Source: Holdemanella biformis DSM 3989 (GTDB lineage: Bacteria > Bacillota_I > Bacilli_A > Erysipelotrichales > Erysipelotrichaceae). Taken from it: a stretch of DNA of 64,000 bases. The stretch spans positions 252,641-316,640 of the forward strand of contig NZ_DS996842.1 of assembly GCF_000156655.1 (NCBI RefSeq), read 5' to 3'. Position numbers and translations under genes: made by a program. The notes below the pieces were generated by a model, which saw only the letters and a program-made list of their open reading frames with translations, ran no database searches and had not been told where the DNA came from. How positions within the stretch are numbered: position 1 is the stretch's first letter; each line of letters starts with the position of its first letter. This document shows, piece after piece, positions 21,258 to 46,348 of this stretch.

Positions 21258-21743
21258 TTACTCCTTTATGATATCTACAGCTTGCACATGAATTAAATCC
21301 ACTAATACTTTAGGATCCATCTCAATCTGCATACCAATCTTACCAGCACTAAAATAGATTGTGTCTTGATTTAAACTGTCCTCATACATAAATGTACGAA
21401 ACTGTTTTTTCATACCTAACGGAGAACATCCACCACGAATATAACCCGTGATCTTATTAATATCCTTTACATGAATCATTTCACAAGATTTAACACCTGC
21501 TACTTTTGCGCACTTCTTTAAATCTAATTCCTTTTCAACTGGAATCATATAGACTAAGTATTCCTTTGTGTTAGCTTGTGTAACCAATGTCTTATATACC
21601 TTTTCAACAGGCTGATTTAACATATTCGCAACATGCACACCATCTACAGAATCCCCATCTTTATGTTCATACGTATGCGCTTTGTATTCCACCTTATGCT
21701 GATCTAAAAAACGCATCGCATTCGTTTTTTGAATCTTTTTCAT
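21258..21743 (-). CDS. ybaK: Cys-tRNA(Pro)/Cys-tRNA(Cys) deacylase YbaK/EbsC family
   Basis: Trans-editing enzyme that removes cysteine wrongly attached to tRNA(Pro), a member of the YbaK/ProRS-INS superfamily. The family signatures are visible: EKVYKTLVT with the conserved Lys (near 50), LKKCAKVAG (near 77-85) and GGCSPLGMKK (near 102-111). The 161-residue length is standard. It overlaps the ANTAR-protein gene by 4 bases (translationally coupled), so it is carried in the glutamine synthetase operon although its role is in translation quality control. Confidence 0.93.
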   Translation of the reverse strand: MKKIQKTNAMRFLDQHKVEYKAHTYEHKDGDSVDGVHVANMLNQPVEKVYKTLVTQANTKEYLVYMIPVEKELDLKKCAKVAGVKSCEMIHVKDINKITGYIRGGCSPLGMKKQFRTFMYEDSLNQDTIYFSAGKIGMQIEMDPKVLVDLIHVQAVDIIKE

Positions 21744-22288
21744 TTTGAAAACTCCTCTAATAATTCTTTAGCCACAAGAAACTTCGTTTTTTGCTGCTCC
21801 ATCGCTATCTTTTCAATGTAGTAATGCGCCTTTTCTTCACTCCAATGATAATTTGAGATCAAAACCAACTTACAATGATCCACCATCTTAAGCTCTAAAT
21901 ATTTCTGCTCAAGCTTATGGATCTTCTTTTCATACATCAAAATCTTCGATTTTAAACTCTTTATCATTTGGAAAGTTTCATACAAAACTTGTTTCTTAAT
22001 GGGATACGACAAAAGTATTATACCACTATCTTTACATTGATATAAAACTTGATCATAGATTTCCTGCTTACACACCATAAGGACTTGCGCATTTAAACTC
22101 TTCGCAAAATTCAAAAGACCACTTTGCGTTTGCGAATATAAGATCACCACAATATCAAATTGAGTATTCCTTAACTTGCTAAAGGCATCATTATATGTTT
22201 TTGAAAGTACATATTGATAATTGGCCGTATTTTTTAATAAAGCTAAGAAATTCTCATTTCCTATTACTAATACTTTACTTGCCTCCAT
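21740..22288 (-). CDS. ANTAR-domain antiterminator protein (AmiR/NasT type)
   Basis: RNA-binding transcription antiterminator of 182 residues. The N-terminal half (about 1-110) is a degenerate receiver-like domain (KVLVIGNENFLALL, then FDIVVILYS) without an obvious phosphoacceptor cluster. A coiled-coil linker (SLKSKILMYEKKIHKLEQ) leads to an ANTAR domain (about 130-175: ELKMVDHCKLVLIS, WSEEKAHYYIEKIAMEQ). ANTAR proteins bind RNA hairpins with A1/G4 hexaloops and prevent terminator formation. It directly follows glnA, and the leader of the divergent GSIII operon carries a matching hairpin over a terminator, so it is the likely regulator of that operon. I chose ATG 22288; a GTG at 22294, directly after the glnA stop, is possible. 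Confidence 0.88.
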   Translation of the reverse strand: MEASKVLVIGNENFLALLKNTANYQYVLSKTYNDAFSKLRNTQFDIVVILYSQTQSGLLNFAKSLNAQVLMVCKQEIYDQVLYQCKDSGIILLSYPIKKQVLYETFQMIKSLKSKILMYEKKIHKLEQKYLELKMVDHCKLVLISNYHWSEEKAHYYIEKIAMEQQKTKFLVAKELLEEFSK

Positions 22289-22294
22289 ACGCAC

Positions 22295-23464
22295 TTACCC
22301 AACATAAATATCCACTATATCGTTCCCTAATATTTCTTTTAACCAAGATGCATTTGAAGCTATTAATTTTGCCTCTTTTAAACTTTGAGGAAGTCTTTTT
22401 GTATCAACACTAACTACATCCGTACAAGGATCTGGAATCATATTCTTTTCAATACCCTCTAAACCAGCATAAATCAATAAGGCATACGCAAGATATATGT
22501 TACAACTACAATCCGGACTTCTTAACTCCATACGATTCGAACTATGCGTAGCCGGAATACGAATCAATTGATTTCGATTTTGGTAGGACCAAGAAATGAA
22601 ACTAGGCGCCTTATCCTTACCCATACGCTTATATGAATCTTTTGATGGATTTAAAAATAAAGTCATCTCCTCAATATGATGTAAGATTCCAGCCATAAAA
22701 GGCATCAACAACTCCTCATGACTTTGCACACTCATATTAATATGCATACCATTACCTGGAGCATTCTCAATTGGTTTTGGCGAAAAGTCCGCCACTAAAC
22801 CTTGCATATTCGCTAAAGCCTCTACAACCCACTTAAAAGTAGCTGCATTATCAGCTGCCTGTAAAGCTTGTGAATAACGAAAATCAATTTCATTTTGACC
22901 CGGACCCATCTCATGATGTGAAACCTCCGGATCAATACCCATCTCAGATAAGGTTAAACAAATTTCACGACGAATATTTTCACCCTTATCTAAAGGGGCA
23001 ATATCCATATATCCACCTTGATCTAAAGGAACAAAGGTATTGTTGCCATTTTCATCTTGTTTAAATAAATAAAATTCAAATTCCGAACCAAAATTAATTG
23101 TGATTCCCTTTTCCTTTGCCTTTTTAACTGCCTTTCTCAATATATACCTTACATCCCTTTCAAAAGGCGTTCCATCCGGATATTGAATATCACAATACAT
23201 ACGAATTACACTGCCATCCATACTTCGCCAAGGAAGAATACTCATCGTATTTGGATCTGGAAATAAGAATAAATCACTATGCACTTCATCTAAAAATCCA
23301 TCAATGGCACTGGCATCAAAACTAATACCTTCCGTAAATGCTCTTTTTAATTCGGTTGGTAAAACGGAAACATTTTTCTGCCTACCATAAATATCAAAAT
23401 AAGAAAGACGAATAAAGCGAACGTCTTGTTCTTCGCAAAAACTCAATACATCTTCATAAGTCAT
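22295..23464 (-). CDS. glnA: Glutamine synthetase type I, short form
   Basis: Makes glutamine from glutamate, ammonia and ATP. The GSI signatures are present: RLSYFDIYGRQKNVSVLP, GSEFEFYLF, the metal site HHEMGPGQNEIDFRY, the loop NAPGNGMHINMS and RIPATHSSNRMELRSPD. At 389 residues it is about 50 shorter than usual GSI: after LKEILGNDIVDIYVG the usual terminal helix (about 30 residues) is missing, and no frameshifted continuation is seen, so the form appears natural. Whether it is catalytic or mainly regulatory is open, especially as a GSIII gene lies next door. ATG 23464 was chosen because GAGG sits 8 bases upstream; the in-frame GTG at 23473 lies within that site. First gene of glnA-ANTAR-ybaK-amylase. 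Confidence 0.93.
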   Translation of the reverse strand: MTYEDVLSFCEEQDVRFIRLSYFDIYGRQKNVSVLPTELKRAFTEGISFDASAIDGFLDEVHSDLFLFPDPNTMSILPWRSMDGSVIRMYCDIQYPDGTPFERDVRYILRKAVKKAKEKGITINFGSEFEFYLFKQDENGNNTFVPLDQGGYMDIAPLDKGENIRREICLTLSEMGIDPEVSHHEMGPGQNEIDFRYSQALQAADNAATFKWVVEALANMQGLVADFSPKPIENAPGNGMHINMSVQSHEELLMPFMAGILHHIEEMTLFLNPSKDSYKRMGKDKAPSFISWSYQNRNQLIRIPATHSSNRMELRSPDCSCNIYLAYALLIYAGLEGIEKNMIPDPCTDVVSVDTKRLPQSLKEAKLIASNASWLKEILGNDIVDIYVG

Positions 23465-23530: not shown

Positions 23531-23558
23531 TTGACAATACAAAATATCTGTTTATAAT
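23531..23558 (+). promoter_or_regulatory. Strong sigma70 promoter of the GSIII operon
   Basis: Consensus -35 TTGACA (23531-23536) and consensus -10 TATAAT (23553-23558) with a 16-base spacer. Transcription should start near 23565, about 87 bases before the GSIII start codon, just ahead of the leader hairpins. Confidence 0.85.
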
Positions 23559-23564
23559 GAATGC

Positions 23565-23633
23565 ATACATGGCAAGGACGCCAAAAAAAGCAGAGGTTTA
23601 TCCCTCATGTTTTTCGTGTCCTTGCCCTTTTTT
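23565..23633 (+). ncRNA. Leader RNA with ANTAR-type hexaloop hairpin overlapping a terminator
   Basis: Two mutually exclusive structures can form. One is a short hairpin, TGGC-[AAGGAC]-GCCA (23570-23583), whose six-base loop has A at position 1 and G at position 4, the ANTAR recognition pattern. The other is a terminator in which GGCAAGGAC (23571-23579) pairs with GTCCTTGCC (23618-23626) ahead of CTTTTTT. A further small hairpin (GAGG / CCTC, 23593-23606) lies between them, with loop TTTATC that does not match the A1/G4 rule. Binding of the nearby ANTAR protein to the first hairpin should block the terminator. The sequences are observed; the mechanism is inferred from the ANTAR family. Confidence 0.7.
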
Positions 23634-23651
23634 ATGTAAAGGAGAGCCATT

Positions 23652-25742
23652 ATGAAATCAAACGTAGAAGAAATTTTTGGAAGTAAAGTTTTCGATGAAT
23701 CTGTTATGCGAGAAAAACTCGCAAAAGATACTTTCCGCGAATTAGAAAAAACCATTCGCGAAGGTAAACAATTAAATATCAAAATCGCAAATGCGGTAGC
23801 CCACGCCATGAAAGAATGGGCTTTAGAACAAGGTGCAACACACTATACACACTGGTTCCAACCAATGACAGGAGTTACAGCTGAAAAGCATGATGGCTTT
23901 ATTAATCCCGATAAAGATGGCAAAGTCATTATGGAATTTAGTGGTAAAGAATTAATCAAAGGTGAACCTGACGCCTCAAGTTTTCCAAATGGTGGACTAA
24001 GAGCCACATTTGAAGCAAGAGGATATACAGCTTGGGATCCAACAAGCTATGCCTTTATTAAAAATGGCGTACTATGTATTCCAACCGCATTCTGTTCTTA
24101 CTCAGGACATGCCCTAGACAAGAAAACCCCACTACTTAGAAGTATGCAAGCCATTAATAAACAAGCCTTACGTATTGTGAAACTATTTGGCAATGACGAT
24201 GTTCAAACCATTAAAACAACCGTAGGACCTGAACAAGAATATTTCTTAGTTGACCAAAAATATTATGAACAAAGAAAAGACTTGATTTATACAGGACGTA
24301 CACTATTTGGTGCACCATGCCCTAAAGGACAAGAATTGGAAGATCACTATTTTGGAACTATTAAATCGCGTGTACAAGAATTCATGTCGGATTTAAATCA
24401 AGAATTGTGGAAACTTGGCATCTTAGCTAAAACGGAACATAACGAAGTAGCCCCTGCTCAACATGAATTAGCCCCAATTTTTACAACGACAAATATCGCA
24501 ACAGACCATAACCAATTGACGATGGAATTGATTCAAAGAGTTGCCAAAAAGCATGGATTGGTTGCCCTACTTCATGAAAAACCATTTGAAGGCATCAACG
24601 GTAGTGGTAAACACAATAACTTCTCTTTATCTACAGATACAGGAATCAACCTACTAGAACCAGGCGATACACCTCATGAAAACGCTCAATTCTTAGTTTT
24701 CTTAGCTGCCATTATTAAAGCCGTTGATGAACACCAAGACTTATTAAGATTAAGTGTAGCTACTGCAGGAAACGATCACCGATTAGGTGCAAATGAAGCT
24801 CCTCCAGCTATCATCTCCATCTTCTTAGGTGATGAATTAACTGCTGTATTAAAGGCCATTGAAGAAGAGAAGCCATATGATGGAAAAGAAAAAGAATTGA
24901 TGAAGATTGGTGCTACTGTTCTTCCTAAATTCCCTAAAGATTCTACCGATCGTAACCGTACTTCTCCATTCGCATTTACAGGAAATAAATTCGAATTTAG
25001 AATGCCAGGATCAAACGCAAGTATTGCCGGATGCAACATTGTATTAAATACAGTGATTGCGGATGAAATCGAAAAATTTGCGAATATCTTAGAAGCTGCA
25101 GATAATTTTGACACGACATTACACGCATTGATCAAAGATACAATCAAGAACCACAAACGCATTATCTTCAATGGCAATGGCTACGATGATTCTTGGGTTA
25201 AAGAAGCTGAATCGAGAGGTCTATTAAATCTTAAGACAACGCCTGATGCTTTACCATATTTCAAAACAAAAGAAAACATTGAATTATTTGAAAGACAGAA
25301 AGTCTTATCAAAAGAAGAAGTTCAATCTCGTTATGAAATCTTAATGGATGAATATGAAAAACAAATCAACATTGAAGCTTTGACTATGTTAGACATCGCC
25401 AAAAAAGACATTTTACCAGCCGCAAGTAAGTTCTCTAAAGAATTGACAGATACCATCACAAACAAAAAAGCCATTGGCATTGACTTAACATATGAACTTG
25501 AAACAGCTAAAAAGGTCAGTGAATATTTAACCGAAGCTTATCAAGCTTTGATCACATTAGAAAAAGATGTTGAAAAACTACATGAGATCGATGATTTTGA
25601 AAAATCAGCCTTCTATGTAAGAGATTTCATTATCCAAGACATGGCGGCCTTAAGAAAACCTTGTGACAAATTAGAAGTCGTAACATCAAATGAAGATTGG
25701 CCATTCCCAACCTATGGAAAATTATTATTCTCAATTCTATAA
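23652..25742 (+). CDS. glnN: Glutamine synthetase type III (GSIII)
   Basis: Large-type glutamine synthetase that assimilates ammonia into glutamine; 696 residues, normal for GSIII, which forms double hexameric rings. Characteristic stretches are HWFQPMTGVTAEKHDGF, VGPEQEYFLVD, TEHNEVAPAQHELAP (metal site), INGSGKHNNFSLS and NRTSPFAFTGNKFEFRMPGS. The ribosome binding site is AAAGGAGAG. It is the first gene of a rightward nitrogen operon with asnB, gltB and gltD, controlled by a consensus promoter and the leader attenuator described separately. A hairpin at 25744-25762 behind it may trim readthrough into asnB. Confidence 0.95.
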   Translation: MKSNVEEIFGSKVFDESVMREKLAKDTFRELEKTIREGKQLNIKIANAVAHAMKEWALEQGATHYTHWFQPMTGVTAEKHDGFINPDKDGKVIMEFSGKELIKGEPDASSFPNGGLRATFEARGYTAWDPTSYAFIKNGVLCIPTAFCSYSGHALDKKTPLLRSMQAINKQALRIVKLFGNDDVQTIKTTVGPEQEYFLVDQKYYEQRKDLIYTGRTLFGAPCPKGQELEDHYFGTIKSRVQEFMSDLNQELWKLGILAKTEHNEVAPAQHELAPIFTTTNIATDHNQLTMELIQRVAKKHGLVALLHEKPFEGINGSGKHNNFSLSTDTGINLLEPGDTPHENAQFLVFLAAIIKAVDEHQDLLRLSVATAGNDHRLGANEAPPAIISIFLGDELTAVLKAIEEEKPYDGKEKELMKIGATVLPKFPKDSTDRNRTSPFAFTGNKFEFRMPGSNASIAGCNIVLNTVIADEIEKFANILEAADNFDTTLHALIKDTIKNHKRIIFNGNGYDDSWVKEAESRGLLNLKTTPDALPYFKTKENIELFERQKVLSKEEVQSRYEILMDEYEKQINIEALTMLDIAKKDILPAASKFSKELTDTITNKKAIGIDLTYELETAKKVSEYLTEAYQALITLEKDVEKLHEIDDFEKSAFYVRDFIIQDMAALRKPCDKLEVVTSNEDWPFPTYGKLLFSIL

Positions 25743-25784: not shown

Positions 25785-27368
25785 ATGTGTACAATTATAG
25801 GATATAAATCATTAAAAATAAGCGAAAACACAATTCATAAAGCATTAGAAAGCACCTATTCTAGAGGACCTGATGATGAAAGAATTCAACAAGTAGGATG
25901 TGGCTATTTAGGCTTTCAAAGACTATCCATTATGGGACTTAGTCCAGAAGGCATGCAGCCATTTGTTAGAAATAACAACCTTGTCGTATGTAATGGTGAA
26001 ATCTATGGCTTTCGAAAATTAAAAGCAGAACTCGAAAAAGATGGCTACACATTTATTTCGCAAAGTGATTGTGAAATTCTTTTACCACTCTATGAAAAAT
26101 ATGGTTTAGACATGTTTAAAAAGCTAGATGCCGAATACGCATGCATTATTTATGATGCCAAGAAAAATGACTTTGTCGCTGCCCGCGACCCCATTGGTAT
26201 TCGTCCCTTGTTCTATGGCTATGATAAAAACCATAATATCGTATTCGCTTCCGAAGCTAAAAATCTTGTTTCAATTGTTGAACAAATCTTTCCCTTCCCT
26301 CCGGGATTCTATTATACCGATGGAAAATTCACTTGTTACTTAGATGTTACTAAAGTGGATAAAGTAATCACTTCAGATCTTGAAACCATCTGTACAAACA
26401 TCCACGATAAATTAGTAGAAGGTGTTAAGAAAAGATTAGATGCCGATGCTCCACTAGGATTCTTATTAAGTGGAGGATTGGATTCAAGTCTAGTATGTGC
26501 CATCAGCCAAAAATTACTAAACAAACCCATCGAAACCTATGCGATTGGAATGGAAGAAGATGCGATTGATTTAAAATACGCCAAAGAAGTCGCTGACTTT
26601 ATTGGTAGCAACCACCATGAAATTATAATTAATAAAGATGATGTTTTACATGCTATTAAACCCGTCATCAAAGCTTTGGCAACCTTTGACATCACCACCA
26701 TTCGCGCCAGCATTGGAATGTATTTAATTTGTAAAGCCATTCATGAACAAAGCGACATTCGCGTATTACTTACCGGAGAAATCAGTGATGAATTATTCGG
26801 CTATAAATATACCGACTTTGCCCCAAGTGCAGATGCATTTCAAGAAGAAAGTGTAAAACGAGTACATGAACTTTATATGTATGATGTATTAAGAGCCGAT
26901 CGTTGTATTTCCACAAACTCCATCGAGGCTCGTGTTCCTTTTGGAGATTTAGACTTTGTCAAATACGTCATGTCCATAGATCCTGAAAAGAAAATGAATA
27001 CATATCATAAAGGAAAATATCTACTTCGTCATGCATTTGAAAAAGATGAAATTCTTCCTTATGACATTTTGATGCGTGAAAAAGCCGCCTTCTCGGATGC
27101 GGTAGGACACTCTTTAAGTGATGACATCAAAGAATATGCCCAAAGCTATTACACAGATGAAGAATTTAAGGAAAAAGTAAAAAAATACAAATACTGTACT
27201 CCATTCACAAAGGAATCCCTATTATATCGAGAGATTTTTGAATCCTACTATCCAAACCAAGCGAGTATGATCAAAGATTTCTGGATGCCAAATAAGAACT
27301 GGGAAGGATGTAACGTCAATGATCCAAGCGCTCGATATTTATCAAACTATGGAGACAGCGGAAAATAG
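25785..27368 (+). CDS. asnB: Asparagine synthase, glutamine-hydrolysing
   Basis: Transfers ammonia from glutamine to aspartate, using ATP, to make asparagine. The N-terminal class II glutaminase domain has Cys2 as nucleophile (MCTIIGYKS), RGPDD and NGEIYGF; the synthetase domain (from about 200) has the PP-loop LLSGGLDSSLVCA (near 226) and TGEISDELFGYKY. The 527-residue length fits the E. coli AsnB type. It lies between GSIII and gltB on the same strand with a 17-base gap to gltB, so glutamine made by GSIII is used by both neighbours. Confidence 0.95.
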   Translation: MCTIIGYKSLKISENTIHKALESTYSRGPDDERIQQVGCGYLGFQRLSIMGLSPEGMQPFVRNNNLVVCNGEIYGFRKLKAELEKDGYTFISQSDCEILLPLYEKYGLDMFKKLDAEYACIIYDAKKNDFVAARDPIGIRPLFYGYDKNHNIVFASEAKNLVSIVEQIFPFPPGFYYTDGKFTCYLDVTKVDKVITSDLETICTNIHDKLVEGVKKRLDADAPLGFLLSGGLDSSLVCAISQKLLNKPIETYAIGMEEDAIDLKYAKEVADFIGSNHHEIIINKDDVLHAIKPVIKALATFDITTIRASIGMYLICKAIHEQSDIRVLLTGEISDELFGYKYTDFAPSADAFQEESVKRVHELYMYDVLRADRCISTNSIEARVPFGDLDFVKYVMSIDPEKKMNTYHKGKYLLRHAFEKDEILPYDILMREKAAFSDAVGHSLSDDIKEYAQSYYTDEEFKEKVKKYKYCTPFTKESLLYREIFESYYPNQASMIKDFWMPNKNWEGCNVNDPSARYLSNYGDSGK

Positions 27369-27385: not shown

Positions 27386-30300
27386 ATGAATTTTGAAATT
27401 GAACATGATGCCTGCGGTATTGGTACCGTAGTCCAAATCGATGGCAAACAAAGCTATGACGTTGTCGATAAGGCATTACACATTGTAGAAAAATTAGAAC
27501 ATAGAGCCGGTAAAGATGCGAGTGGTAAAGTGGGGGATGGTGTTGGAATCTTACTTCAAATTAGTGATGATTTTTTTAGAAAAACATTAAAAAAAGAAAA
27601 TATTAAACTTCCAGAATACTATGGAGTGGGTATGTTTTTCTTGCCAAGAAACAAACTTTTATTAAATCAACATAAAAAGATATTTGAAAAATTTGTAGAA
27701 CAAGAAGGTTGCAAATTTATCACATGGCGAAAAGTTCCTTGTAACGAATCTATCTTAGGTCAAAAGACCAAGGACTGCATGCCAAATATCTATCAAGCTT
27801 TTATTGAAAGACCTCAAAATATTTCGAGTAATGTAGATTTTGACAAAGTCTTATATGTCATTCGTCGTGAATTTGAAAAGAGTTGTAAAGAAACCTATAT
27901 CGCAAGCTTAAGCAGTCGTACTATTGTCTATAAAGGCATGTTTCTAGTATCCCAATTAAGAAACTTTTACCTAGATCTTCAAGATAAAAATTATAAATCT
28001 GCCATTGCGATCGTACACTCTCGTTTCTCTACCAATACCACACCATCTTGGCAAAGAGCGCATCCAAACCGTTTTATTGCGCACAATGGTGAAATCAATA
28101 CCATTCGTGCCAACGTCAATAAGATGTTAGCGCGTGAAGAAAGTATGCACTCTGAATTCTTAGACAAAAATTCAAGTAAGATTCTACCTATCATCAATAC
28201 TTCAGGATCGGATTCTGCCATGCTAGATAATGCCCTTGAGTTTTTAGTTATGAATGGCATGCCACTAGAAAAAGCCGTTATGATCTTAATTCCAGAACCA
28301 TGGAAACACCAAGACATGGACCAAAAGAAAAAAGATTTCTACCACTACTATGCCACAATGATGGAACCATGGGATGGTCCTGCCGCCATTTTATTTAGTG
28401 ATGGTGAAAAAGTCGGAGCTGTCCTTGATCGTAACGGACTAAGACCAAGTCGTTATTATCTAACAAGCGACAACATGTTGATTTTATCAAGTGAAGTCGG
28501 TGTTTTAGATATTGATGAAAAGAAAATCGTAAAAAAATCTAGACTTGAACCAGGCAAAATGTTGCTTGTGGATACAAAGAAAAAAGAATTGATTGAAGAT
28601 TATGATTTAAAGAAAGAATATGCCTCTTCGAATCCATATGGAGAATGGCTAGATACCTATCTATTACACCTTAAAGATTTGCCAGCTCCCGATAAGAAAA
28701 CCCACATCCACTCTCAACATGAAAGAGATATTCTTTATAAGATTTTCGGATATACCTATGAAGATGTAAAAGACATTATTTTACCAATGGCCCGCGTCAA
28801 ACTTGAACCAACAAGTGCGATGGGTACCGATATCCCTTTGGCAATTTATTCCAAAAATCATTTAAGTTTATTCCATTATTTTAAACAACTCTTCGCCCAA
28901 GTAACCAATCCACCAATTGATTCTTTACGTGAAGAAGTTGTTACAGATACAACTATCTATATTGGTAGTGATGGAAACTTATTAAAAGACAAATCCGAAA
29001 ACTGTACAGTCTTAGAGGTTAATAATCCAATCTTAACATCACGTGATATGGATAAGATTCGTCAATTAAATCAGACAGGATTTAAAAACGAAACCATTTC
29101 CCTATTGTTCTATCGTGGTACGTCTTTAAAAGAAGCTTTAGACAACTTATTTATTGAATGTGACAAAGCCTATAGAAATGGTGCAAATATCTTAATTCTT
29201 TCTGATAAAGGTGTAGACGAAGGTCATATGGCTATTCCTAGTCTTTTAGCTGTATCTGCCTTAGAACAACACTTAGTCAAAACCAAAAAGAAAACCGATG
29301 TATCTATCATTGTAGAAAGTGGTGAACCTAGAGATGTTCATCAATTCGCTACATTACTTGGCTATGGGGCAACCGCCATCTATCCATATTTGGCACATGA
29401 ATGCATTGAAGAAATGATTCAATTGAATATGTTAGATAAAGAAGTCAATATTGCGATTGATGATTATAACGAAGCCATTTTAAAAGGCATTGTTAAAATT
29501 GCAGCTAAAATGGGAATCTCTACGCTTCAATCGTATCAAGGAGCCCAAATCTTTGAAGCCATTGGAATTTCAAAAGATGTCATCGATACCTATTTCACAA
29601 ATACCATTAGTGAAGTGGAAGGTATCACTTTAGAAGATATCGAAAAAGATTTGATCTACCATCATGATTGTGCTTATGATCCATTAGGACTTACAACCGA
29701 TACAAGTCTAGATTCCATTGGATTCCATAAGCTAAGAAAGGGAGATGGAAAAGAAGATCACTTATATTCTCCAGAAACGATTGTGAAACTTCAAAGAGCT
29801 ACACAAACCAACGATTATGATTTATTTAAGGAATATTCCAACGAATTAAATTCAAACCGTCAAAAACATCATTTGAGAAGTCAATTGCACTTTAAAAAGA
29901 CAAGAAATTCAAGTCCATTATCGGAAGTGGAAAGTGAATATGAAATCGTAAAACGCTTTAAAACAGGTGCCATGAGTTATGGTTCTATCTCTGAAGAAGC
30001 GCATACTTGCATGGCGATTGCGATGAACCGTTTGGGTGGTAAATCCAATTCGGGCGAAGGTGGTGAAAAACCAGAACGTTTAGGTACAGAAAAGAACTCC
30101 GCTATTAAACAAGTGGCAAGTGGTCGTTTTGGTGTCACCGAAGAATACTTAGTCAGTGCCAAAGAAATTCAAATCAAAATGGCACAAGGCGCAAAACCAG
30201 GTGAAGGTGGACACTTACCAGGCAAAAAAGTCTATCCATGGATTGCAAAAACTCGTTATTCAACGCCAGGCGTATCTTTGATTTCCCCTCCTCCTCACCA

Positions 30301-31843
30301 CGACATCTACTCCATTGAAGACTTAGCTCAATTGATCTACGACTTAAAAAATACCAATCCACAAGCTCGAATCAGTGTCAAATTAGTTAGTGAAGCTGGT
30401 GTTGGTACGATTGCCTCTGGTGTTGCCAAAGCCGGTGCTAGCGTCGTCTTAATTTCTGGCTATGATGGAGGTACAGGGGCGGCTGCACAAAGTAGTATTC
30501 ACCATGCAGGTCTTCCTTGGGAATTAGGTTTAGCCCAAGCCCACCAAAACTTAGTGGAAAATGGCTTAAGAAGTCGTGTTTTAATTGAAACCGACGGAAA
30601 ATTAATGACCGGAAAAGATGTAGCCATTGCCTGCTTATTAGGCGCTGAAGAATTTGGCTTTGCGACTGCACCACTTGTTACTATGGGATGTATGATGATG
30701 CGTGTATGTAATCTAGATACTTGTCCATTTGGTGTGGCAACACAAAACCAAAAATTAAGAAAACGTTTTAAAGGAAAACCGGAATATGTCATGAATTTCA
30801 TGTTGTTTATTGCCCGTGAATTAAGAGAAATTATGGCTGACCTTGGCTATCACACAATCGATGAAATGGTTGGTCATACAGATAATCTTGAGGTTGATGA
30901 AGATGCGAATATGGATTACTCAAACATTTTAATGACTCCACACAACATTCATTATGAACCTAAAGATACATATAACTTTGAACTTGAAAAAACGGTGGAT
31001 ATGAAGACATTACTTCCTAAGTTTGAACCTTACTTCAACGAAAAAAAGCCTCATTCTGAAACAATCTCAATTTCAAGTACGGATCGTACCGTAGGAACTA
31101 TTTTATCCAATGCCGTCACTAAACAATTTAATAACACATTAGAAGATGATACATATACAGTCCATTGTAATGGTGGAGCTGGACAATCTTTTGGTGCCTT
31201 TGCACAAAAAGGAATCACTTTAGATGTTCATGGCGATGCCAATGACTACTTTGGTAAGGGCTTGTCTGGTGGTAAATTGATTATTCAACCTAAAGAAGAA
31301 GCGACTTTTAAGCCAAATGAAAATGTCATTATTGGAAATGTTGCCTTATATGGTGCTACAAGTGGTGAAGCCTATATTCGTGGTATGGCTGGTGAGCGTT
31401 TTGCGGTTCGTAATTCAGGTGCAAGTGCGGTTGTAGAAGGTGTTGGAGATCATGGACTTGAATATATGACAGGTGGTACTGTCGTCATTTTAGGTCAAAC
31501 TGGTAAAAACTTAGCTGCCGGTATGTCTGGTGGTGTTGCATATGTATATGATCCGAATCATGATCTATATATGCGTTTAAATAAACAGTTAGTCAATACA
31601 TATGAAGTAAGTGGAAAAGCGGATAAAGAAGTATTAGAAGAGCTTTTAAACAAGCATTATACATATACAGATTCAGATGTAGCTAAAAAGATTCTTTCAA
31701 ATCTAGATAAAGAATTATCAAACTTTAAAAAGATCGTTCCTAAGGATTATGAAAAGATCACAACATTGATTCAAGAACTTCAGGCAAAAGGCTATCACGA
31801 AGATGAAGCCAGTCTTATGGCTTTTGAACAAGTACACGCATAG
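27386..31843 (+). CDS. gltB: Glutamate synthase large subunit
   Basis: Large (alpha) subunit of glutamate synthase, 1485 residues, producing glutamate from glutamine and 2-oxoglutarate. Order: class II glutaminase with Cys10 exposed after removal of nine residues (MNFEIEHDA, then CGIGTV); a central domain (about 430-720); FMN-binding synthase domain with GAMSYGSISEEAH, NSGEGGEKPER and GYDGGTGAAAQSS; a 3Fe-4S cluster motif CMMMRVCNLDTCPFGVA (near 1102-1118); and the C-terminal GXGXG beta-helix (GLSGGKLIIQ, AAGMSGGVAYVYD). Intact. It pairs with GltD, encoded 17 bases downstream. Confidence 0.97.
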   Translation: MNFEIEHDACGIGTVVQIDGKQSYDVVDKALHIVEKLEHRAGKDASGKVGDGVGILLQISDDFFRKTLKKENIKLPEYYGVGMFFLPRNKLLLNQHKKIFEKFVEQEGCKFITWRKVPCNESILGQKTKDCMPNIYQAFIERPQNISSNVDFDKVLYVIRREFEKSCKETYIASLSSRTIVYKGMFLVSQLRNFYLDLQDKNYKSAIAIVHSRFSTNTTPSWQRAHPNRFIAHNGEINTIRANVNKMLAREESMHSEFLDKNSSKILPIINTSGSDSAMLDNALEFLVMNGMPLEKAVMILIPEPWKHQDMDQKKKDFYHYYATMMEPWDGPAAILFSDGEKVGAVLDRNGLRPSRYYLTSDNMLILSSEVGVLDIDEKKIVKKSRLEPGKMLLVDTKKKELIEDYDLKKEYASSNPYGEWLDTYLLHLKDLPAPDKKTHIHSQHERDILYKIFGYTYEDVKDIILPMARVKLEPTSAMGTDIPLAIYSKNHLSLFHYFKQLFAQVTNPPIDSLREEVVTDTTIYIGSDGNLLKDKSENCTVLEVNNPILTSRDMDKIRQLNQTGFKNETISLLFYRGTSLKEALDNLFIECDKAYRNGANILILSDKGVDEGHMAIPSLLAVSALEQHLVKTKKKTDVSIIVESGEPRDVHQFATLLGYGATAIYPYLAHECIEEMIQLNMLDKEVNIAIDDYNEAILKGIVKIAAKMGISTLQSYQGAQIFEAIGISKDVIDTYFTNTISEVEGITLEDIEKDLIYHHDCAYDPLGLTTDTSLDSIGFHKLRKGDGKEDHLYSPETIVKLQRATQTNDYDLFKEYSNELNSNRQKHHLRSQLHFKKTRNSSPLSEVESEYEIVKRFKTGAMSYGSISEEAHTCMAIAMNRLGGKSNSGEGGEKPERLGTEKNSAIKQVASGRFGVTEEYLVSAKEIQIKMAQGAKPGEGGHLPGKKVYPWIAKTRYSTPGVSLISPPPHHDIYSIEDLAQLIYDLKNTNPQARISVKLVSEAGVGTIASGVAKAGASVVLISGYDGGTGAAAQSSIHHAGLPWELGLAQAHQNLVENGLRSRVLIETDGKLMTGKDVAIACLLGAEEFGFATAPLVTMGCMMMRVCNLDTCPFGVATQNQKLRKRFKGKPEYVMNFMLFIARELREIMADLGYHTIDEMVGHTDNLEVDEDANMDYSNILMTPHNIHYEPKDTYNFELEKTVDMKTLLPKFEPYFNEKKPHSETISISSTDRTVGTILSNAVTKQFNNTLEDDTYTVHCNGGAGQSFGAFAQKGITLDVHGDANDYFGKGLSGGKLIIQPKEEATFKPNENVIIGNVALYGATSGEAYIRGMAGERFAVRNSGASAVVEGVGDHGLEYMTGGTVVILGQTGKNLAAGMSGGVAYVYDPNHDLYMRLNKQLVNTYEVSGKADKEVLEELLNKHYTYTDSDVAKKILSNLDKELSNFKKIVPKDYEKITTLIQELQAKGYHEDEASLMAFEQVHA

Positions 31844-31859
31844 GAAAGGATGAAGGATT

Positions 31860-33314
31860 ATGGGAAAACCAACAGGATTTTTAGATTACAAACGACAAGA
31901 AAATGAAGCGATTGAGCCACTTAGTCGAATCACAAATTTTAATGAATTTCATCCTTTTTTAGATGAAGAAACACGACGCAAACAAGGTGCACGCTGCATG
32001 AATTGTGGCGTTCCCTTTTGTCAGTCCGCTATCAAATTAAAAAACATGGTCACGGGTTGTCCTTTACACAACTTGATTCCGGAATGGAATGATGAAATCT
32101 ATAATGGCAATGATAAACGTGCTTTATCAAGATTATTGAAAACCAATCCATTTCCTGAATTTACAGGTCGTGTATGCCCTGCTCTTTGTGAGAAGGCATG
32201 TTTAAATGGTTTAGATCAAGATCCAGTCACAATTAAAGAAAATGAATTGTATACGATTGAAACGGCCTATACTAACAATTGGATGAAAGCTTTTATTCCT
32301 AGTGTTCGCTCCGATAAAAAAGTAGCCATCATTGGTTCAGGACCTGCAGGTTTAGCTTTGGCTCATGATTTGAATCGTAGAGGACATGCTGTTACAGTCT
32401 TTGAAAAAGAAGATCGTCTTGGTGGTTTATTGATGTATGGTATTCCGAATATGAAACTGGAAAAGAAAGTGATTCAAAGAAGATTAGACATACTTACCGA
32501 AGAAGGAATCGTTTTTAAAACCAATGTCAATGTTGGAAAAGACATCACAAAAAAAGAATTGGAAAAAGAATATGATGCGATCATCTTTGCGACTGGATCC
32601 AAAAAAGCACGAGATTTACATGTAAAGAATCGTGATTGTACAGGCATTTATTTTGCGGTGGACTATCTTACAAAGGCAACGAAACATTTGTTGGATAATA
32701 CCGAAGAAATCTCTGCCAAATATAAACATGTTGTGATTGTTGGTGGTGGTGATACGGGAAATGATTGTGTTGGAACAAGTATTCGTCAGGGGTGTGCAAG
32801 TGTAGTTCAAATTGAAATGATGCCAAAAAGCCCAGATGAAAGACTTGAAAGTAATCCATGGCCCGAATGGCCTAAGATCTGTAAAACAGATTATGGTCAA
32901 GAAGAAGCAATAGCTGTCTTTAAAAAGGATCCTCGTATTTATGAAACAACTATTAAAGAATGTATATTAGATGACAAGAAAAATCTAAAACAGATCAAAA
33001 CGGTAAAAGTACGCTTCAACAATGGAAAGCTTGAAGAAGTGAAAGGTACAGAACAAATCTTGGATTGCGATTTATTATTGATTGCGGCTGGTTTTATTGG
33101 TGTTGAAGATGATTTAAAGAAGAGTTTTAAATTGGAAACAACACAGAGAAATACGATTGTGACACAACCAAATTCTTTTCAAGTCAAAGACAAATACTTT
33201 ACGGCTGGAGATTGTCATAGAGGTCAGTCTTTGGTTGTTTGGGCAATCCATGAAGGTAAAGAGTGTGCTAAAGAAGTGGATGCGTATTTAATGGGTTATA
33301 CAAATATGGAATAA
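31860..33314 (+). CDS. gltD: Glutamate synthase small subunit
   Basis: Small (beta) subunit of glutamate synthase, 484 residues, which passes electrons from NAD(P)H through FAD and 4Fe-4S clusters to GltB. The N-terminal cysteine-rich part has CMNCGVPFCQ (near 46-55) and CPALCEKACLNG (near 102-113) for two 4Fe-4S clusters; the FAD site is AIIGSGPAGLALAHDLNRRG (near 155), and the NAD(P)H site is VVIVGGGDTGNDCVGT. Last gene of the nitrogen operon. A recognisable terminator directly after it was not seen. Confidence 0.97.
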   Translation: MGKPTGFLDYKRQENEAIEPLSRITNFNEFHPFLDEETRRKQGARCMNCGVPFCQSAIKLKNMVTGCPLHNLIPEWNDEIYNGNDKRALSRLLKTNPFPEFTGRVCPALCEKACLNGLDQDPVTIKENELYTIETAYTNNWMKAFIPSVRSDKKVAIIGSGPAGLALAHDLNRRGHAVTVFEKEDRLGGLLMYGIPNMKLEKKVIQRRLDILTEEGIVFKTNVNVGKDITKKELEKEYDAIIFATGSKKARDLHVKNRDCTGIYFAVDYLTKATKHLLDNTEEISAKYKHVVIVGGGDTGNDCVGTSIRQGCASVVQIEMMPKSPDERLESNPWPEWPKICKTDYGQEEAIAVFKKDPRIYETTIKECILDDKKNLKQIKTVKVRFNNGKLEEVKGTEQILDCDLLLIAAGFIGVEDDLKKSFKLETTQRNTIVTQPNSFQVKDKYFTAGDCHRGQSLVVWAIHEGKECAKEVDAYLMGYTNME

Positions 33315-46065: not shown

Positions 46066-46101
46066 TAAAATAAAAAGACCTGCAACGTAAAAAGACAGGT
46101 C
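46066..46101 (-). terminator. Terminator of the TPP riboswitch
   Basis: Minus-strand hairpin GACCTG / CAGGTC (46077-46101) followed by TTTTTATTTTATT, immediately after the riboswitch aptamer; the expression platform for ligand-dependent termination. Confidence 0.75.
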
Positions 46102-46114
46102 AAAAAAACATCTA

Positions 46115-46192
46115 TACTTCCTACGCCGGCATTATCCGTCAGGTTTAATGGGTCGAAGTCGTACTTCCTCTCAGCAATAGCTCCCCAGATTT
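46115..46192 (-). ncRNA. TPP (thi-box) riboswitch
   Basis: The minus strand reads GGGGAGC, then GCTGAGAGGAAGTACGAC, GACCCATTAAACCTGACGGA and TAATGCCGGCGTAGGAAG: the conserved thi-box elements (CTGAGA, ACCTGA, GGATAATGCC, GTAGGAA) in the right order. It senses thiamine pyrophosphate and controls thiW-thiM-thiE through the following terminator. The remaining bases up to 46348 hold no gene or structure that I can see. Confidence 0.95.
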
Positions 46193-46348
46193 ATTTACTA
46201 CATTTAGAATTTTAGTACAAAACACACTAAAGTGCAAGCCAATATGTAATCAATCATGAAACAATACAAAAATTAATTCTTATCTATCTTCTTATTCTAT
46301 ATGTTGTATTTATTATTCAAAACCATCCTATCTCAAGATAATTAATGC

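Follow-up and report, generated by a model that had tools for sequence, protein, structure and literature searches.

A single-hexaloop leader before a GSIII glutamine synthetase operon of Holdemanella biformis, predicted to be an ANTAR-controlled attenuator

The leader of the GSIII-asnB-gltB-gltD operon in the window, a 64,000-nucleotide stretch of the Holdemanella biformis DSM 3989 genome, is very probably an ANTAR-controlled transcription attenuator that acts through one hexaloop. A promoter is followed by a hairpin and by a terminator that overlaps it; the hairpin is conserved and covaries among relatives, lacks the upstream P1 partner of dual-hexaloop targets, co-occurs with an ANTAR gene, and is found again at a second target in the same genome. 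A single hairpin probably lets an RNA-binding protein flip the switch in this leader, and, judging from the sequences, ammonia-assimilation genes of many Firmicutes are preceded by the same switch.

We infer ANTAR binding, antitermination, the direction of the signal, and the role of the neighboring type I glutamine synthetase (GSI) as a glutamine/glutamate sensor. By default, the leader RNA would fold into the terminator and transcription would end after ∼65 nt. Under low nitrogen or glutamine, the ANTAR protein would grip the single hexaloop, which lies in the first hairpin to come out of the polymerase; with the hairpin so held, the terminator's 5′ arm would be blocked and the GSIII operon transcribed. 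Unlike EutV, the protein would need no P1 hairpin upstream, and it would control the amtB-PII gene in the same way. The degenerate GSI would sense glutamine/glutamate and hold the ANTAR protein, as AmiC holds AmiR.

Anatomy and conservation of the GSIII leader

The first-pass annotation of this DNA had described a consensus promoter followed by TGGC-AAGGAC-GCCA with A1 and G4 in its loop, and the description holds at every promoter position (Table 1). Between the −10 box (TATAAT, 23553-23558) and the hairpin lie 11 nt, and the start site, which in all leaders was deduced from the promoter sequence, is predicted ∼5 nt 5′ of the hairpin. The stem has four pairs (TGGC, 23570-23573; GCCA, 23580-23583), and the loop AAGGAC (23574-23579) has A at position 1 and G at position 4. 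Such a hairpin at such a place arises in 0.4% of shuffled leaders. The four genes of the operon are separated by gaps of 16 to 42 nt.

Table 1. Features of the GSIII leader and its surroundings (window positions unless another contig is named)
Feature	Position	Strand	Evidence
Sigma-70 promoter of GSIII operon, TTGACA-16-TATAAT (−35 box, 23531-23536)	23531..23558	+	12/12 consensus matches
ANTAR-type hexaloop hairpin (putative antiterminator) TGGC-AAGGAC-GCCA	23570..23583	+	sequence, conservation, covariation
Intrinsic terminator 5′ arm GGCAAGGACGC, bases common to hairpin	23571..23581	+	RNA fold
Inner terminator stem GAGG-TTTATC-CCTC, not an ANTAR hexaloop	23593..23606	+	loop T1/A4
Terminator 3′ arm GTGTCCTTGCC and T run	23616..23633	+	sequence, RNA fold
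GSIII glutamine synthetase, operon gene 1	23652..25742	+	PF12437 3.7e-82 and two further GS domains
Asparagine synthetase asnB	25785..27368	+	PF00733
Glutamate synthase large subunit gltB	27386..31843	+	PF00310, PF04898, PF01645, PF01493
Glutamate synthase small subunit gltD	31860..33314	+	PF14691, PF07992
Degenerate glnA-type GSI	22295..23464	-	PF00120, PF03951
ANTAR RNA-binding protein with pseudo-receiver, predicted antiterminator	21740..22294	-	PF03861 E = 4.5e-7, over cut-off
amtB-PII leader (L205 / L252)	G000:C36, near 50187	-	promoter, single ANTAR hexaloop, terminator

The claim that the hairpin bases double as the 5′ arm of the terminator was also borne out. That arm pairs with a segment at 23616-23626, followed by C-T6 at 23627-23633. 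The entire leader RNA has a folding energy of −29.5 kcal/mol, compared with a mean of −11.2 ± 2.3 for shuffled leaders (z = −7.9; 0 of 200 shuffles were as stable). Given that the hexaloop hairpin by itself, with its flanks, reaches −5.2 kcal/mol, the terminator is the default fold and the hairpin needs help. The two structures are mutually exclusive, as the hairpin's 5′ arm and loop, and some of its 3′ arm, also serve in the terminator.

To place the leader among relatives, 170 GSIII leaders were collected: 80 were retrieved from GTDB through similarity of the protein, and the other 90 came from the family to which the window belongs; part of the set was picked by similarity to the window's GSIII. 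Leaders were scored for a loop AANGNN closed by C-G after a recognizable promoter. Seventy-six, from family relatives and distant Firmicutes, carry a promoter-positioned A1/G4 hexaloop; the first-pass annotation had named a lack of such conservation as grounds for abandoning its reading. In the family leaders the promoter is conserved and its spacing to the hairpin hardly varies; 13 to 18 nt separate the −10 box from the loop-closing C in 65 of the 76. In the minimum free energy folds of 70 of the 76, the hairpin bases pair further downstream with an arm bordered at its end by a T-rich stretch.

Covariation analysis, which the annotation had proposed as a check, was carried out on 67 distinct hairpin windows, for which the loop and the closing C-G were the sole selection criteria. 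The stem covaries: A-T, C-G, and T-A exchange for one another, the third pair is formed in 64 of the 67 windows (shuffled maximum, 60), and the fourth in 47 (shuffled mean, 26.5; maximum, 40). Loop position 5, which like position 6 was not selected for, is a purine in 66/67, and position 6 is mostly C. The invariance of A1, A2, and G4 is not independent evidence, since these letters were set by the search pattern.

Two side observations were made. CodY-box-like sequences lie within 110 nt before the GSIII promoter (leaders L113-L149), where agreement with 12 or more of the 15 positions of AATTTTCWGAAAATT is seen in 10 of 29 leaders (about 1 expected from shuffling); the window's best match is 11/15. 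A TPP riboswitch at 46101-46197 of the window (minus strand) is over its Rfam gathering score.

The ANTAR protein, its further targets, and the neighboring GSI

The strand opposite the GSIII operon carries glnA (GSI), the ANTAR gene, and a tRNA-editing-domain gene. That the ANTAR gene lies right behind the divergent glnA was correctly noted at first pass, and the genome has no other ANTAR match. The tRNA-editing-domain (YbaK-like) gene (window 21258-21743, minus strand) stands 3′ of the ANTAR gene in most family loci. Because the GTG listed as the start of GSI (23473) sits inside the ribosome site, the true start is probably the ATG at 23464, as read from the sequence.

An AlphaFold model of the ANTAR protein (mean pLDDT 94) has a receiver-like domain, a long helix, and an ANTAR domain, and its closest solved structures are EutV and AmiR. 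In all 36 aligned homologues, the position of the phospho-acceptor Asp (50) is I, V, L, or M, which marks the domain as a pseudo-receiver. The EutV RNA-contact positions Lys149, Glu160, and Met172 are invariant in the 36 homologues, and the position of EutV Tyr164, which stacks on G4, is His in all of them, as in AmiR. Two defining features of the AmiR type, an ANTAR domain and a receiver-like fold without the phospho-acceptor Asp, are present; for the third, control by binding to a neighboring sensor protein, the adjacent GSI is the candidate.

Homologues of the window's ANTAR protein (E <= 0.001) occur in 44 of 273 family genomes, 36 of which also had an examined GSIII leader. The hairpin is present in the GSIII leader of 29 of these 36, compared with 3 of 37 family genomes that lack the protein (Fisher p = 1.4e-10, uncorrected for kinship). 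Of the three exceptional genomes, two have a completeness of 66% and 78% and one a contamination of 10%. The seven genomes with the protein but without a hairpin by our rule are four of genus g54, with a weak hairpin or none, and genomes G182, G165, and G220. Second GSIII copies in the same genomes have leaders without the hairpin. The genome of H. biformis has three glutamine synthetase genes, the ANTAR-adjacent GSI and two GSIIIs; the second GSIII (G000:C38:233642, L155), ∼19 kb before the window, has no ANTAR leader, and such copies recur in relatives. An ANTAR protein was found in 47 of the 50 GTDB genomes tested, a figure that shows no more than how common ANTAR proteins are there, because the GTDB set mixes genomes that have the hairpin with others that lack it. 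PF03861 by itself predicts the GSIII hairpin poorly: genus g8 has a second type of ANTAR protein and GSIII leaders without the hairpin.

The 76 leaders, the covariation, the terminator overlap in 70 of them, and the 29/36 versus 3/37 distribution lend comparative support to the proposal, already made at first pass, that an ANTAR protein controls the GSIII leader; binding of the protein there, and glutamine as its signal, would follow the same proposal. Two elements go beyond that annotation, a second target at amtB-PII and the degenerate state of glnA.

A pattern scan of the H. biformis genome returned 8 sites, and only those at GSIII and amtB combine hairpin, terminator, and promoter. At amtB, a promoter, the hairpin AGGC-AAAGGC-GCTT, and a terminator precede the gene for an ammonium transporter with a C-terminal PII domain. 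The element is present at almost all of 15 amtB genes in 14 ANTAR-bearing genomes (H. biformis included), and at several of these genes it stands in tandem. In genus g8, the different, shorter ANTAR type is encoded behind a canonical GSI and before gltB, and a similar promoter-hairpin-terminator element forms the GSI leader (L242, L243, L244, L246, L247), with an imperfect stem in 4 of the 5 (GAGC-AAAGGT-GCCC). From its presence before GSIII and, in g8, before GSI, the leader appears to be placed in front of the glutamine synthetase that is the working one.

The ANTAR gene lies directly behind a GSI gene in nearly all loci that could be read. In the window's GSI, the flap SYKRMGKDKAP replaces SYKRLVPGYEAP, and the Arg62 position is lost. 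The flap of the ANTAR-linked GSIs is one residue shorter than SYKRLVPGYEAP in 45 of 45, and the position of the catalytic flap Glu is Lys in 32 (the window's among them), Glu in 8, and another residue in 5. In the glutamine synthetase of Bacillus subtilis, flap Glu304 is required for catalysis (PMC10799026). All 35 GSIs readable at the position of the feedback arginine (Arg62) lack it, while the five canonical g8 GSIs retain both flap Glu and feedback Arg. Measured against an active class I enzyme, the window's GSI lacks the flap Glu and has the metal-, glutamate-, and ATP-site residues and Asp50, which are kept in nearly all GSI sequences that cover them.

The shortened flap, the replaced Glu, and the adjacency to the ANTAR gene suggest a sensor derived from a glutamine synthetase. 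By analogy with AmiC-AmiR and GS-TnrA, GSI would serve chiefly as a sensor, holding the pseudo-receiver ANTAR protein in response to glutamine/glutamate; alternatively, it may be a ligase that acts on a different substrate. We tentatively suggest, at somewhat less than even chances, a two-part nitrogen sensor, in which a GSI without flap Glu and feedback Arg, its ligand site kept, would sense glutamine or glutamate and capture or release the ANTAR protein, which in turn would govern the working GSIII and amtB through single-hexaloop leaders at the transcription start. If true, this would be a case of an enzyme converted into a receptor for an RNA-binding regulator. Its conserved association with the ANTAR gene makes the flap-altered GSI a candidate nitrogen sensor for these anaerobes.

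One hexaloop and competing explanations

Dual-hexaloop ANTAR targets consist of the hairpins P1 and P2, separated in eut genes by linkers of 5 to 12 nt, and two hairpins are present in every studied ANTAR antiterminator target, those of EutV, NasR, and AmiR (PMC3369931). Antitermination by EutV in vivo requires both hexaloops (PMC3369931, PMC8934654). EutV nevertheless binds one isolated hexaloop roughly as strongly as two together, and Walshe et al. took a single hexaloop as the new minimal binding motif and called for single-loop sites to be surveyed (PMC8934654). Because EutV needs both hexaloops in vivo, antitermination through one hairpin is put forward here as a proposal.

A standard dual-hexaloop target with a hidden P1, owing either to a start further upstream or to the inner GAGG-TTTATC-CCTC acting as second loop, would fit all the studied precedents (PMC3369931), and 14 of the 76 leaders do have another hexaloop further on. 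We consider it improbable. The window hairpin is preceded by 5 nt of RNA, whereas P1 and a 5- to 12-nt linker need ∼17 to 25 nt. None of the 76 leaders has a second A1/G4 hexaloop 5′ of the hairpin within the RNA, and the RNA 5′ of the hairpin is shorter than 12 nt in 70 of them, so the P1 hairpin of the EutV/NasR/AmiR dual motif is absent. Even when the promoter is ignored, A1/G4 hexaloops within 45 nt upstream are not above chance (2/76, with 3.7 expected). The inner loop was ruled out as a second ANTAR loop: it has T1 and A4, in line with the first-pass remark that only the first hairpin fits the A1/G4 rule, and TTTATC is not retained in the sister species (L114). The hexaloops in the 14 leaders lie 48 to 93 nt downstream and, where inspected, belong to a tandem second hairpin-terminator module. 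Two hairpins joined by a 5- to 12-nt linker, as set out by Ramesh et al. in 2012, are not found in the GSIII leaders; an A1/G4 hexaloop and an overlap of hairpin and terminator, also set out there, are both found in the window leader.

The sole hairpin overlaps the terminator and so takes the P2 position of the dual motif. The first-pass annotation had presented it as unusual that one hairpin, and not a second, excludes the terminator. The exclusion stands and the peculiarity does not, since on the sequences of the 76 leaders, none with an upstream partner, a single hairpin that excludes the terminator is the predicted rule of the whole class.

An attenuator that works without ANTAR, through a leader peptide, a riboswitch, or a BglG/RAT-type element, is very unlikely. 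An ATG at the 5′ end of the hairpin does open a 28-codon frame, but it has neither a ribosome site nor a run of Gln/Glu codons. The frame ends after 8 codons in the sister species (L114), and a leader peptide was rejected because it is not kept there. An Rfam search of the window and a lax search of the leader found no family at its gathering score for the leader; the best subthreshold match was bglG-cis-reg, at 22.6 bits (gathering score, 80), and no BglG-type antiterminator is encoded beside the leader. The hairpin also tracks the ANTAR gene.

Equally slim are the chances that the hairpin is the mere inner part of a constitutive terminator trimming GSIII expression and its ANTAR-loop likeness incidental, a view that suits the weakness of the lone hairpin (−5.2 versus −29.5 kcal/mol) but not the retention and covariation of its 5′ arm in many relatives whose terminators use the loop and 3′ arm only, its nearly fixed position after the −10 box, or the same element before amtB and, in g8, the GSI-ANTAR-gltB operon.

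Comparison with known systems

ANTAR control of glutamine synthetase and glutamate synthase genes is already known. ANTAR targets before such genes were described in 2012 by Ramesh et al. (PMC3369931), and, according to a review citing Stutz 2007, NitR, a Clostridium ANTAR protein, induces GS/GOGAT genes on nitrogen limitation (PMC6316151). New, as far as the open-access literature searched goes, are the placing of a single hexaloop at the transcription start, how widespread this layout is, and the pairing with a degenerate GSI; no earlier report of a GSIII-ANTAR or single-hexaloop leader was found in that literature. Structural work on EutV left open why there are two hexaloops when one suffices for binding (PMC8934654). 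The leaders described here are candidates that answer the call of Walshe et al. for a survey of single-loop sites (PMC8934654), and with many one-hairpin attenuators, known targets, and mostly one cognate ANTAR protein per genome, the two-hexaloop question becomes directly testable.

NitR of Clostridium saccharobutylicum, like the protein here, is tied to glutamine synthetase and glutamate synthase genes, and the g8 relatives with a canonical GSI-ANTAR-gltB arrangement (L242, L244, L247) resemble its cluster. The present system differs in that GSIII is the regulated enzyme, the ANTAR gene lies behind a flap-altered GSI, one hexaloop is used, and amtB-PII is a second target. With EutV of Enterococcus faecalis it shares the A1/G4 hexaloop, a P2-like hairpin that overlaps the terminator, the protein fold, and the RNA-contact positions. 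EutV, however, has a phosphorylated receiver and a histidine kinase, whereas the receiver here is without the Asp, and the EutV target has P1 and needs both loops, whereas P1 is absent here.

The amidase operon of Pseudomonas aeruginosa, with AmiC and AmiR, likewise places a pseudo-receiver ANTAR protein beside the gene of a ligand-binding partner; AmiR also has the His in place of EutV Tyr164 and is among the closest folds. AmiC is of the periplasmic-binding type and the AmiR target has two hairpins, while the candidate partner here is a GSI homologue. Lastly, if GSI is a sensor, the system shares with the glutamine synthetase of B. subtilis and its partners GlnR/TnrA the control of a nitrogen regulator by protein contact with a glutamine synthetase. 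In B. subtilis the enzyme is active and the regulators bind DNA; here the regulator is predicted to bind RNA, and the flap Glu is lost in most of the GSIs.
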